Below are positions 3,314-62,574 of a stretch of DNA of 64,000 bases, in pieces; position 1 is the first letter of the stretch; each line of letters begins with the position of its first letter. The notes beneath the pieces were generated by a model. That model was not told the origin of the DNA, searched no databases, and saw nothing but the letters and a program-made list of their open reading frames with translations. Origin of the DNA: Knoellia flava TL1 (GTDB lineage Bacteria > Actinomycetota > Actinomycetes > Actinomycetales > Dermatophilaceae); assembly GCF_000768675.1 (NCBI RefSeq), contig NZ_AVPI01000077.1:1-64000 (forward strand), given 5' to 3'. The position numbers were made by a program, and so were the translations under genes.

Positions 3314-3329
3314 CCCGGTTGCAACCGGG
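3314..3329. promoter_or_regulatory. Perfect 16-bp palindrome, candidate operator
   Basis: CCCGGTTGCAACCGGG is a perfect palindrome about 105 bases upstream of the permease start and 234 bases upstream of rpmE. A dimeric regulator is a reasonable reader, but no family can be assigned. Confidence 0.45.
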
Positions 3330-3407
3330 CGCACCCGAGATTTCCGCGTCACCGACGCTCCGGCTCGCGCGGGGAATGCGTGTAGCGCTCCCGCCGTTTA
3401 GGGGAAC

Positions 3408-58470: not shown

Positions 58471-59736
58471 ATGGCACCGAAGACCGACCACCTCATCGGG
58501 CTCCTGCTCGGCGCGGAGGACGACTGGCCCACCGCCTTCGAGGCGTTGGCGAGGCGGCTCGGGGTGATCCGCACGGCGGACGGTGCCGACCACCGGGTGA
58601 GCTCGGAGCGGCTGACCATCGAGCCCTTCAACCTGCGCGACAAGCCCCGGCACGACCTCGTCATCGACCGGCTGGCGCACTGGTACTACCACCCCCGTGA
58701 GTGGCTCAAGAAGGTCTCGCTCATGGACGACGTCTACCTGCTCAACAGCCCGTTCACGTTCCAGTCGATGGAGAAGCACTCGGCCTACTGCGCGCTCATG
58801 CGGCTCGGGATGCACGTGCCCGACACCGTGCTCGTCCCCTACAAGAACCCCGTCGACAACGCGCGGTGGGCCTACACGTCGAGCCGCTACAACAAGAGCT
58901 TCGACCTCGACGCCATCGCCGACGAGCTCGGCTACCCGATGTTCATGAAGCCCTTCGACGGCGGCGCCTGGCGCGGTGTGTCGATGATCAAGGACCGCGA
59001 GGCGCTGCACCACGCCTACGACGACTCCGGCGAGATGCTCATGCACCTCCAGAAGGCCGTCGACGGGTTCGAGGTCTTCGCCCGCGCGCTCACCATCGGA
59101 CCCGAGACGATGACGATGAAGTTCCAGCCCGACGAGCCCATGCACAACCGGTATGCCGTGGAGCACGGCTTCCTCGCCGAGGAGACCGGTCGCGAGGCGG
59201 TCACCATCGCCCAGACCGTCAACGCCTTCTTCCGGTGGGAGTTCAACTCCTGCGAGATGCTCGTGCGCGACGGCGTCGTCTATCCCATCGACTACGCCAA
59301 CGCCTGCCCCGACGTCGCCGTGACCTCGCTGCACTACTACTTCCCGTGGGCGATGAAGGCGCTGCTGCGCTGGTCGATCTTCTGCACCGTCACCGGTCGC
59401 AAGGCGCGGACCCAGGTCGACACGGACCCGTGGTTCGCGATCGCCGACGACGAGGGGCTCGACTACTCGGCCAAGCTCACGGCATACCAAGGCCTGGCGG
59501 ACGACCACTTCGAGACCGAGCGCTACCGGGAGTTCTGCGAGACCTCGCTGCCGCACGTCGACGAGATGGTGCACGAGTGGGTCGGGTCCGAGGAGTTCCG
59601 CACGCTGCTCCAGACGACGATCCACCAGACCTACCCGCCGCACGAGTGGGAGAAGTTCGAGGGCCACTTCGGTGGGTTGCTCGGCATGTGGCTGAGCGAC
59701 GAGCAGCACCGGCTGGGCTCGCGAGCCGACGCCTGA
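58471..59736 (+). CDS. ATP-grasp (RimK-like) protein
   Basis: A 421-residue protein with ATP-grasp features. The adenine/phosphate-binding lysine region is YPMFMKPFDGGAWRGVSMI, with EVFARALTIGPETMTMKF and the metal-binding stretch EMLVRDGVVYPIDYANACPDV following. An N-terminal ~85-residue domain (HWYYHPREWLKKVSLMDD) and a C-terminal helical region are family-specific. ATP-grasp enzymes join a carboxylate to an amine or thiol through an acyl phosphate. With two esterases upstream, a small-peptide or amide-bond pathway is conceivable. GAAGGGAA precedes the ATG. The last codons run into a GGGCTCGCGAGCC word shared with the downstream repeat. Confidence 0.78.
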   Translation: MAPKTDHLIGLLLGAEDDWPTAFEALARRLGVIRTADGADHRVSSERLTIEPFNLRDKPRHDLVIDRLAHWYYHPREWLKKVSLMDDVYLLNSPFTFQSMEKHSAYCALMRLGMHVPDTVLVPYKNPVDNARWAYTSSRYNKSFDLDAIADELGYPMFMKPFDGGAWRGVSMIKDREALHHAYDDSGEMLMHLQKAVDGFEVFARALTIGPETMTMKFQPDEPMHNRYAVEHGFLAEETGREAVTIAQTVNAFFRWEFNSCEMLVRDGVVYPIDYANACPDVAVTSLHYYFPWAMKALLRWSIFCTVTGRKARTQVDTDPWFAIADDEGLDYSAKLTAYQGLADDHFETERYREFCETSLPHVDEMVHEWVGSEEFRTLLQTTIHQTYPPHEWEKFEGHFGGLLGMWLSDEQHRLGSRADA

Positions 59737-59741
59737 ACGCT

Positions 59742-59818
59742 CCCGGGCTCGCGAGCCCGGGTGCCGCTCCCGAGCCTCGTCAACGGGGCTCGGGGGCGGC
59801 ATGAGGGCTCGCGAGCCC
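59742..59818. repeat. Hairpin repeat, copy A
   Basis: It begins with a 20-bp perfect palindrome CCCGGGCTCGCGAGCCCGGG. A stem TGCCGCTCCCGAGCC/GGCTCGGGGGCGGCA (one wobble) around TCGTCAACG follows, and the element ends with GGGCTCGCGAGCCC-type sequence. It lies between the ATP-grasp stop and the end of the DUF559 gene and matches copy B (60809-60884) closely. Confidence 0.85.
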
Positions 59819-59823
59819 ATCGC

Positions 59824-60744
59824 TCAGGCGGCGGCGAGCAGACCACGGATACGGGCAACGAGTGCCTCCGGCCGCCTCAGGTCGCTCCACGTCACCCGGA
59901 CGACCCGGAACCCGGCGGCCCGCAGCCGGTCCTCACGGCGCTTTTCCTCGATGAGGGCACGCCTGCCGTCGAGGCCGTCGTACTTGACTGCACCGTCGAA
60001 CTCCACCACGACGCGCTCGCCGACGAGGAAGTCGACACGTCCCATGAAGCCGTCGGCGTCGCTCAGCGAGACCTGTGACCGCACGTCCAACCCCGCCCCG
60101 ACAAGGATGAGGCGCGTCCGCGTCTCACCGGGGGACTCGCACGACGGGTCCACGGCCGCGATGGCGCCGCGCGCCTGACCCGTGCGATAGCGCACCGCGA
60201 GCTCGACCAGGCTCTGGGACAGTGCACTGACGGTCGTCATTCCACGCTTGAGTGCGGCGTCCATGGCGACCACGCCGGCCTCCACGCCGCTGCCGACAGC
60301 GGTGAGCACGCACGCGTCCGGCACGCTCACTGAGGTGGCCGTTGGGTGGGAGATGAGCGCGCGCTGGGCCGCGGTGGCCACGTGGACGTGGTGCCCGGTC
60401 CGGCGCTTGCTCGTCCGCACGGCCGCGACGACATCGACCACGGAGGTGTCCACCGCGAACAGGGGCAGGCCGAGGAGGGCGAGGGCGGCGTGGTGCGAGG
60501 CGAGCCACTGCGGGCGGTCGACGAGCACCCCACGGACAGTCAGCTCGTAGCGTGTGTGCGCCGGTGCCGCCTCCCACACCGACGTCTCGACGAGCAGGCC
60601 TGGCCTGATCCGGTGCAGGCTCCCCGAACGCACCGAGGCCTCGAGCACGCCGGGCGTCACGTGCGCCGCGAGGGCGAGGCGTCGCGTGACGAGCCCTCGG
60701 TGGTCGCGGGCGAGTCGGGCAAGGGAGTGGGGCAGGTGGCTCAT
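59824..60744 (-). CDS. AbiEi-like N-terminal / DUF559 (Vsr-like nuclease fold) protein
   Basis: A 306-residue protein. The N-terminal part is a helix-turn-helix of the AbiEi antitoxin type (GLVTRRLALAAHVTPGVLEA, RSGSLHRIRPGLLV). The C-terminal ~110 residues resemble the DUF559/very-short-patch-repair fold: SPGETRTRLILV, GFMGRVDFLVGERVVVEFDG, EKRREDRLRAAGFRVVRVTW, with Glu, Asp and Glu-x-Asp at PD-(D/E)xK-like positions. No AbiEii-type toxin is adjacent. ATG 60744 is chosen because the frame further upstream runs through hairpin-repeat copy B. It is flanked on both sides by that repeat, which hints at mobility. Function unproven. Confidence 0.78.
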   Translation of the reverse strand: MSHLPHSLARLARDHRGLVTRRLALAAHVTPGVLEASVRSGSLHRIRPGLLVETSVWEAAPAHTRYELTVRGVLVDRPQWLASHHAALALLGLPLFAVDTSVVDVVAAVRTSKRRTGHHVHVATAAQRALISHPTATSVSVPDACVLTAVGSGVEAGVVAMDAALKRGMTTVSALSQSLVELAVRYRTGQARGAIAAVDPSCESPGETRTRLILVGAGLDVRSQVSLSDADGFMGRVDFLVGERVVVEFDGAVKYDGLDGRRALIEEKRREDRLRAAGFRVVRVTWSDLRRPEALVARIRGLLAAA

Positions 60745-60808
60745 CCGCTCAGGGTGCTCCAGATGCCGCCCGACGCCGCGGCGTTCTCCACAGGGAGCCC
60801 GAGACGGC

Positions 60809-60884
60809 GGGGCTCCCGAGCCCCACATGCTGCTCCCGAGCCTCATCAACGAGGCTCGGGAGCAGCATGTGGGCTCGCGAGCCC
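60809..60884. repeat. Hairpin repeat, copy B
   Basis: It starts with GGGGCTCCCGAGCCCC, then a perfect 21-bp stem (left arm 60824-60844 beginning CACATGCTGCTCCC, right arm 60851-60871) around ATCAAC, and ends with GGGCTCGCGAGCCC (60871-60884). It lies between the DUF559 start and the pgm stop. The stem differs from copy A by paired changes, indicating that the structure is maintained. Confidence 0.87.

Positions 60885-60909: not shown

Positions 60910-62570
<1,661 letters not shown>

Positions 62571-62574
<4 letters not shown>

Follow-up and report, generated by a model that had tools for sequence, protein, structure and literature searches.

The subject of this study is a gene placed between two copies of a palindromic repeat in Knoellia flava TL1, within a stretch of 64,000 nucleotides (positions 1 to 64,000 of the forward strand of contig NZ_AVPI01000077.1, RefSeq assembly GCF_000768675.1) that is referred to here as the window. 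The gene (59824..60744, minus strand) encodes a protein of 306 amino acids, called AbiEi-Vsr in the following, for which an AbiEi-like DNA-binding half and a Vsr-like nuclease half are predicted. The two repeat copies, to which no strand is assigned, belong to what is termed type 1a. Element A (59745..59818, with a 72-bp core at 59746-59817) is located between the convergent 3' ends of the nuclease gene and of its left neighbour, an ATP-grasp-like gene (58471..59736, plus strand) present in 9/9 Knoellia genomes, and element B (60810..60884, with a 73-bp core at 60811-60883) between the start of the nuclease gene and the 3' end of its right neighbour, the phosphoglucomutase gene pgm (60910..62574, minus strand; TIGR01132 match above its cut-off). 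Element A is made up of an outer palindrome, a 10-nt spacer, a split inner palindrome with GTCAAC at its centre, a second spacer and a second outer palindrome. The 14-mer GGGCTCGCGAGCCC is found exactly at both of its ends (59745-59758 and 59805-59818); in element B it is exact at the right end (60871-60884), while the left end (60810-60823) reads GGGCTCCCGAGCCC, with one mismatch, and GCTCCCGAGCCTC is exact in both elements, at 59766 in A and 60832 in B.

A preliminary description of this DNA had presented A and B as two hairpin copies with shared words and compensated stem differences on either side of the gene. Folding as single-stranded DNA bears this out for the locus itself, with -43.9 kcal/mol for A and -47.8 kcal/mol for B (z -8.5 and -11.0), values matched by 0/200 dinucleotide shuffles; the compensated stem holds for these two copies but not as a feature of the family, the spacers of the 44 type 1a copies collected below pairing at about chance. 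The 14-mer GGGCTCGCGAGCCC occurs at 7 places across the 3.56 Mb genome (reversed control, 0), and loosely matched words are not above chance within the window (29 matches with up to three mismatches, 31.5 expected). A search of Rfam gave two miRNA matches only, both far under the gathering scores, and these were set aside.

The Pfam matches of the window protein (AbiEi_4, MTES_1575 and DUF559) are all below their cut-offs, and a sequence search of the PDB with the protein gave no significant match. The AlphaFold2 model, obtained with a 30-row alignment, has a pLDDT (predicted local distance difference test) of 94.2; its residues 5-199 match the AbiEi antitoxin of S. agalactiae (Z 10.0), and two nucleases are matched by residues 200-306, namely I-Bth0305I, a homing endonuclease (Z 11.8), and Vsr (Z 10.3), this second half being referred to as Vsr/EDxHD-like. 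A further match, to the TnsA structure (Z 6.8), may be merely a common arrangement. On the strength of the modelled fold, the gene product is predicted to combine a winged-helix DNA-binding part of the AbiEi type with a Vsr-like nuclease. Among the 30 members of the alignment, 29 are matched by the PADLOC AbiEi models, 23 by Pfam AbiEi_4, 12 by DUF559 and 12 by MTES_1575. Sixteen columns do not vary; in 14 of these the residue is charged or polar, and 14 fall within residues 200-306. The EDxHD catalytic motif comprises E, D, x, H and D; E207, D238, E248, D250, K254, E267, K268, R270 and E271 are positions of the family alignment that are invariant in the 30 members. A HUH/Y1 tyrosine transposase domain was not found, both halves (residues 5-306) being matched by the AbiEi and Vsr/EDxHD folds; the HVH of the window protein is unconserved across the alignment, and the HUH fold is missing from the structure matches listed, an absence that alone rules out nothing.

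A protein search of the window's genome gave ten matches, and the relation of the family to repeats was measured on loci from this and other genomes by comparing the 400 nt on either side of each gene with each other, a repeat score of 40 or more between the two flanks being counted as a pair. In a first set 39/54 loci had a pair. The same held for 55/79 named loci, the best 80 of a longer list in which each species was represented by a single genome (Knoellia, Kribbella, Rhodococcus, Ornithinimicrobium, Cellulomonas, Rothia, Gordonia and others), of which one was dropped because of a short flank and nine duplicate earlier loci, against 1/249 open reading frames (ORFs) of the same loci. Once ten repeated loci were removed, 143 distinct family loci of Actinobacteria remained, with scores of at least 40 in 99, at least 50 in 83 and at least 60 in 73; L124, whose direct score of 800 is a short-contig artefact, and L198, with a flank shorter than 150 nt, were left out of the counts. 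Control ORFs reached 40 in 0/81 cases in the window and 7/298 at the other fetched loci, four of the seven being themselves family genes, and, since some of the control ORFs are spurious frames in GC-rich sequence, random intervals were added, of which 8/1,500 in the window and 11/1,500 at the named loci scored at least 40 (19/3,000 in total). The association of the protein family with bracketing repeats is stated with high confidence. At the 83 loci scoring at least 50 the median repeat is 79 nt long, ends 96 nt before the start codon and starts 13 nt past the stop, its best alignment being direct in 39 and inverted in 44; the paired repeats are mostly palindromic, but some high-scoring pairs are not clean hairpins, and a few are tandem or G-rich repeats.

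The repeat goes with the protein lineage. Repeat similarity tracks protein similarity over the 83 loci (Mantel r 0.54, permutation maximum 0.074), and a shared repeat was found in 25/25 pairs of proteins with a similarity of at least 0.7, in 22/129 between 0.5 and 0.7 and in 0/3,249 below 0.5. A hidden Markov model (HMM) of the element finds type 1 elements adjoining all nine close relatives of the gene (at least 56% identical; weakest E 0.015), and none at 21 more distant paralogues (E up to 1), which carry flank repeats of their own kind. Its hits at the gene's own site in G000 (the window's genome) and in three other Knoellia genomes, G001, G004 and G005, are given by construction because these sites fed the training set, which did not include the five close relatives located elsewhere. 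Paralogues within one genome follow the same rule: in G000 the window gene (C77) goes with GGCTC-type elements (type 1a; 12 copies including A and B), while the C34 paralogue, 62% identical, goes with GGTTC-type elements (type 1b; 6 copies, two of them bracketing it), and G001 has 8 GGTTC copies, two of which bracket its C192 gene. In G176, which belongs to another genus, eight element matches were listed first, and the best homologue of the protein (52%) was then located exactly between two of them. Two family genes, G001:C192:5396-6299 and G004:C1:793648-794551, were matched in two pieces, in other frames or with a gap, with the elements still adjoining; these are perhaps decaying copies.

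The elements are dispersed well beyond the genes. A single pattern with two outer words retrieves 12 complete elements in G000, 12 in G001, 6 in G002, 17 in G005, one each in G004 and G007, and 0 in G003, G006 and G008, with 0 in all controls. Across 186 genomes of the Dermatophilaceae the pattern is matched in nine, and outside Knoellia only G176, with 8 matches, looks real; those in G183 and G011 were not accepted as elements, given their element-HMM E-values of 0.07-0.5, and at L017 and L018, drawn from 16-mer matches in G026 and G023, no element was visible by eye. With both word types 80 type 1 elements were collected, 77 from Knoellia and 3 from G176, and 74/80 are exactly 72 bp long where 70-74 was allowed; a wider pattern that admits 56-84 bp gave 44/49 at 72 bp, three at 73, one at 67 and one at 61. 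The layout seen in element A is common to type 1, the split inner palindrome surrounding a TCRA centre, so that the palindromic words of an element number four, at distances of about 19, 22 and 19 bp by hand count. In the 44 type 1a copies pairing across the element is seen for the outer and the inner words, and the 10-nt spacers pair little or not at all above chance (the top excess being 2 standard deviations, at one of ten pairs). This near-fixed length with free spacers suggests that the type 1 element is a set of spaced protein sites on double-stranded DNA. Two further repeats of G000, type 2 (7 pattern matches at 6 places; control 0) and type 3 (19 matches at 18 places; control 0), bracket the C33 and C2 paralogues respectively, and dispersal was seen for four repeat types in Knoellia.

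As regards the history of the copies, 12 of the 80 type 1 elements lie beside a family gene and 68 elsewhere, and at 52 of these 68 no type 1 element is present at the matching place in other species. Interior identity is higher within species than between them, 0.667 vs 0.589 for type 1a and 0.706 vs 0.608 for type 1b, beyond all 500 permutations, so that the sequence has drifted in a species-specific way; the inner parts of type 1 agree at 82-84% within species. Type 3 copies agree over 78 nt at 92% in G005 (9 copies) and 84% in G000 (17 copies, lowest 69%), against 78% between species and 54-57% for their 60-nt flanks in the same alignment; such close likeness within a species, set against the flanks, speaks for a spread of type 3 within each species. 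Of type 2, the copies inspected are for the most part almost perfect palindromes some 60 nt long.

Most copies are found just past gene 3' ends. With gene ends judged from open frames and third-position G+C rather than from gene calling, a coding-looking gene end lies within 60 nt on the left side of 23/26 type 3 copies and on the right side of 4/26, and on either side of 62/80 type 1 copies, the figures for random window positions being 6.7% for one side and 13% for either; a terminator role and a tolerance of insertions at such places are both possible. The preliminary description had named ordinary terminators as the finding that would undo its proposal, and the position agrees in part with that, as do the strong hairpins at A and B. 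On this explanation the repeats would terminate transcription and owe their dispersal to a process of a general kind, and the presence of the nuclease gene among them would be incidental. It leaves unexplained, however, why this family is bracketed rather than the neighbouring ORFs and why each paralogue is paired with its own repeat; moreover, no T-run follows A or B, as judged by eye, and the type 1a copies are, as a family, not continuous hairpins, so that we consider terminators alone improbable.

The best explanation of these data, to which we give a probability of roughly 0.58, is that the locus is one copy of a REPtron-like pair of repeat and enzyme, in which AbiEi-Vsr would bind and probably cut its cognate repeat and drive its spread or upkeep. 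The enzyme is likely to be the agent rather than a passenger, judging from the sequence comparisons, because 99/143 loci have a pair and the sequence of the repeat varies in step with the lineage of the protein. In the proposed mechanism the AbiEi half would bind the repeated words, by analogy with AbiEi proteins that, as PMC7319586 describes, bind 23-bp inverted repeats and autoregulate; the element copy beside the gene would then also serve as its operator. The element would be nicked or cut by the Vsr-like half and, by repair or by strand transfer from other copies, would be spread, converted or maintained near gene 3' ends, the whole element-gene-element unit being carried, rarely, to new sites.

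The pair would thus work like RAYT/REP, in which a REP-associated tyrosine transposase (RAYT or TnpAREP) is coupled to repetitive extragenic palindromes (REP), with an unrelated nuclease in its place. PMC8266576 and PMC3733652 describe REPtrons as genes bordered by palindromes with which they co-evolve, with dispersed solo REP copies between genes and several repeat families per genome, each with its own enzyme. A gene flanked by its own dispersed palindromic repeat, solo intergenic copies, several enzyme-repeat pairs per genome and co-evolution are common to both. By contrast, the REPtron enzyme is a HUH tyrosine transposase and not an AbiEi domain fused to a Vsr-like nuclease, REP is a hairpin of 20-40 bp whereas type 1 is a 72-bp array of four words, and the hosts here are Actinobacteria; the GTAG/CGTC tag is absent from the type 1a flanks, the other types having been viewed by eye only. 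Since the enzyme is unrelated, the AbiEi-Vsr pair is not a member of the REPtron family: the way of life is known from REPtrons, and the enzyme class and element architecture are not known. With I-Bth0305I, an EDxHD homing endonuclease, and Vsr the protein shares the predicted nuclease fold, but here it is fused to an AbiEi DNA-binding half and its gene is free-standing between repeats, no intron or intein having been noticed in the course of work that included no dedicated search for them. With the AbiE type IV toxin-antitoxin systems (AbiEi; Rv2827c) it shares the AbiEi fold and, on the side of AbiEi, the binding of inverted repeats, but no AbiEii (DUF1814) toxin gene lies beside it at the window locus, where the nuclease gene stands alone between pgm and the ATP-grasp gene, and the additional nuclease domain as well as the repeats on both sides of the gene and elsewhere set it apart. 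Among the papers listed in searches of open-access literature, no link of DUF559 or AbiEi proteins to dispersed palindromes was found, and no report that combines DUF559 and AbiEi.

Several results weigh against a REPtron-like pair, and those that concern bracketing can be taken first. At a threshold of 40, 44/143 loci lack a pair; eight of the window genome's own ten family genes pass, three of them barely (41, 43 and 43), and random window intervals score up to 48. With 500-nt flanks the count for this genome is 9/10 instead of 8/10, the difference being L262, and L266 is a fragment without a pair. Orthologues at one locus inflate the correlation of protein and repeat, and there joint inheritance alone would suffice. 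Elements also occur with only remote homologues of the gene, as in G007 (a type 1a element, best homologue 40%) and in G003 and G006 (a type 1b element each, best homologues 32 and 30%). Finally, two other genes lie between two elements in the same way, one M23-peptidase-like (G005, L086 3203-4070) and one LysE-like (G002, L121 2313-2979), both named by reading their translations, and either chance or cargo could account for them.

This last observation is what would be expected if A and B were a pair of miniature inverted-repeat transposable elements (MITEs) that bracket a cargo gene, as the preliminary description had proposed, the gene being unrelated to the repeats and a transposase moving them. 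Part of that proposal stands: the elements are, like MITEs, short, dispersed, palindromic and non-coding, with 12 complete copies in the genome, and the gene is missing from this site in 5/9 Knoellia genomes. The gene, however, is not cargo but belongs to the repeat's regular partner family, and different repeat families are recurrently tied to this same protein family; AbiEi-Vsr, not a known transposase, is the sole regular coding partner found for the elements, and a transposase role for it is putative. The target duplications that had been suggested as a check were not found at the 44 type 1a elements (k 3-6, offsets 0-8, in comparison with shuffled pairings), which is again unlike MITEs and counts against a REPtron-like spread as well. 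A MITE pair with unrelated cargo is accordingly given very little probability.

Other results concern the age and movement of the copies. The spacers of type 1 agree at only 43-50% within species, where 28-30% is expected at random, so that most copies look old, with the words alone kept, and type 1 would reflect constraint on putative binding sites more than recent copying. Of the 68 type 1 elements away from a family gene, 16 share their place with an element in another species, and two of the shared sites, homologous on both flanks, have a GGCTC element in one species where the other has a GGTTC element, a switch of words that points to conversion, re-insertion or selection on the words. 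Comparison with G008 and G004 gave no base-exact empty site, and one clear shorter site (C26 in G008); at C67 G008 has a GGTTC-like element, and at C67 and C61 G004 has another palindrome. The latter genome, Knoellia sp. Soil729, carries at two intergenic sites, L240 (~1705-1750) and L242 (~1712-1757), the palindrome CTCGCCTTGTGTGCCTCA...TGAGGCACACAAGGCGAG where the window's genome has type 1 elements, and this palindrome has no match among the flank repeats collected.

These data could be accommodated if the protein were a regulator or chromosome organiser, with the repeats as its binding sites and, at the gene, its operators, the dispersed copies being selected and changing with the protein, the nuclease serving defence or repair, and the repeats immobile. 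The near-fixed 72-bp layout with four spaced words and poorly conserved spacers resembles an operator array; the M. tuberculosis AbiEi homologue Rv2827c binds four inverted repeats, according to PMC7319586; and orthologous sites retain an element in spite of the word switch. Further, a TCCACA/TGTGGA motif, which resembles a DnaA box, lies within 140 nt upstream of 111/143 family genes, against 2/84 window ORFs; it is mostly TTNTCCACAG, where paired it is usually spaced by 29 bp, and in the window it is represented by TTCTCCACAGGG (60784..60795, no strand), between the nuclease-gene start and element B. Such a motif could link the expression of family genes to replication. Nevertheless, agreement of type 3 copies within species over the full 78 nt is not needed for binding alone, copy numbers range from 0 to 17 between sister species, and an operator would not require the downstream copy, which begins at a median of 13 nt beyond the stop codon. 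A purely regulatory role appears unlikely, and the REPtron-like pair is preferred to it, the chief alternative to that pair being that the repeats serve as binding sites or terminators.

The gene itself varies between species at the window site. It follows the ATP-grasp gene in 4/9 Knoellia genomes (G000, G001, G004 and G005); in the remaining five (G002, G003, G006, G007 and G008) none turned up within 1.5 kb of that gene. In G003 and G006 pgm comes directly after the ATP-grasp gene, and in G005 the next gene, within the stretch examined, is not pgm. A type 1a element is upstream of the nuclease gene in 4/4 carriers, and a downstream element is present only in G000 and G005. The comparison of this junction in relatives, which had been proposed in search of an empty site, confirmed that the gene can be absent without giving a site that is empty to the base. 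In G007 and G003 the same intergenic site has solo palindromes similar to repeats that flank other genes of the family (scores 50 and 40; shuffles up to 28), and the palindromes at this site in G008 and G002 have no clear match among flank repeats. In two of the genomes without the gene, G007 and G002 (L030 and L031), its place after the ATP-grasp gene is filled by small genes that, by eye, resemble toxin-antitoxin pairs.

The occupation of one site by different palindromes would fit homing alone, in which a solo element cut by the nuclease receives a copy of the element-gene-element unit through recombination, the solo elements being older host or mobile DNA. I-Bth0305I, the closest nuclease fold, is a homing endonuclease, and an element-gene-element unit beside solo elements is the remainder expected from homing into an element. 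At the window site, however, none of the genomes combined a solo element of that type with absence of the gene, and homing leaves the closely similar, gene-less dispersed copies of type 3 unexplained; it is the least probable of the explanations considered, and a REPtron-like pair, in which the element itself would be spread, remains the favoured one.

A wider form of the REPtron-like reading, on which the balance is even, is that the AbiEi-Vsr proteins of Actinobacteria constitute a large group of selfish nucleases not recognised so far, each clade of which would recognise, cut and propagate its own palindrome next to gene 3' ends in a homing- or transposition-like manner, with several pairs per genome and a second, unrelated origin of the REPtron lifestyle. 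In that case gene 3' ends would be shaped, in many genomes, by several parallel systems of this kind, whether selfish or domesticated, and the antitoxin annotation of these proteins would be misleading. Regardless of this, a concrete DNA partner is provided for a large family that profile libraries call AbiEi antitoxin or DUF559; Actinobacteria gain repeat-enzyme pairs of a kind found described only with HUH transposases; and the several pairs of paralogue and repeat in one soil bacterium make binding, cutting and spread testable by swaps.

Some minor features complete the picture. A further outer word, GGGCTCGCGAGCC (59715..59727, no strand), is present in the last codons of the ATP-grasp gene, where the preliminary description had placed it; it is outside the 72-bp register and may be due to chance or be a remnant. 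The window also contains, at positions 3318-3353 (minus strand), GACGCGGAAATC...CCCGGTTGCAACCGGG, a palindrome of type 2, the repeat type found on both sides of the C33 family gene. Lastly, the word TATGCCG, often as GTATGCCGTCCGC, occurs within 60 nt to the right of 11/26 type 3 copies (L320-L345) and to the left of one, and also near some type 1b flank repeats, as a further short intergenic motif.

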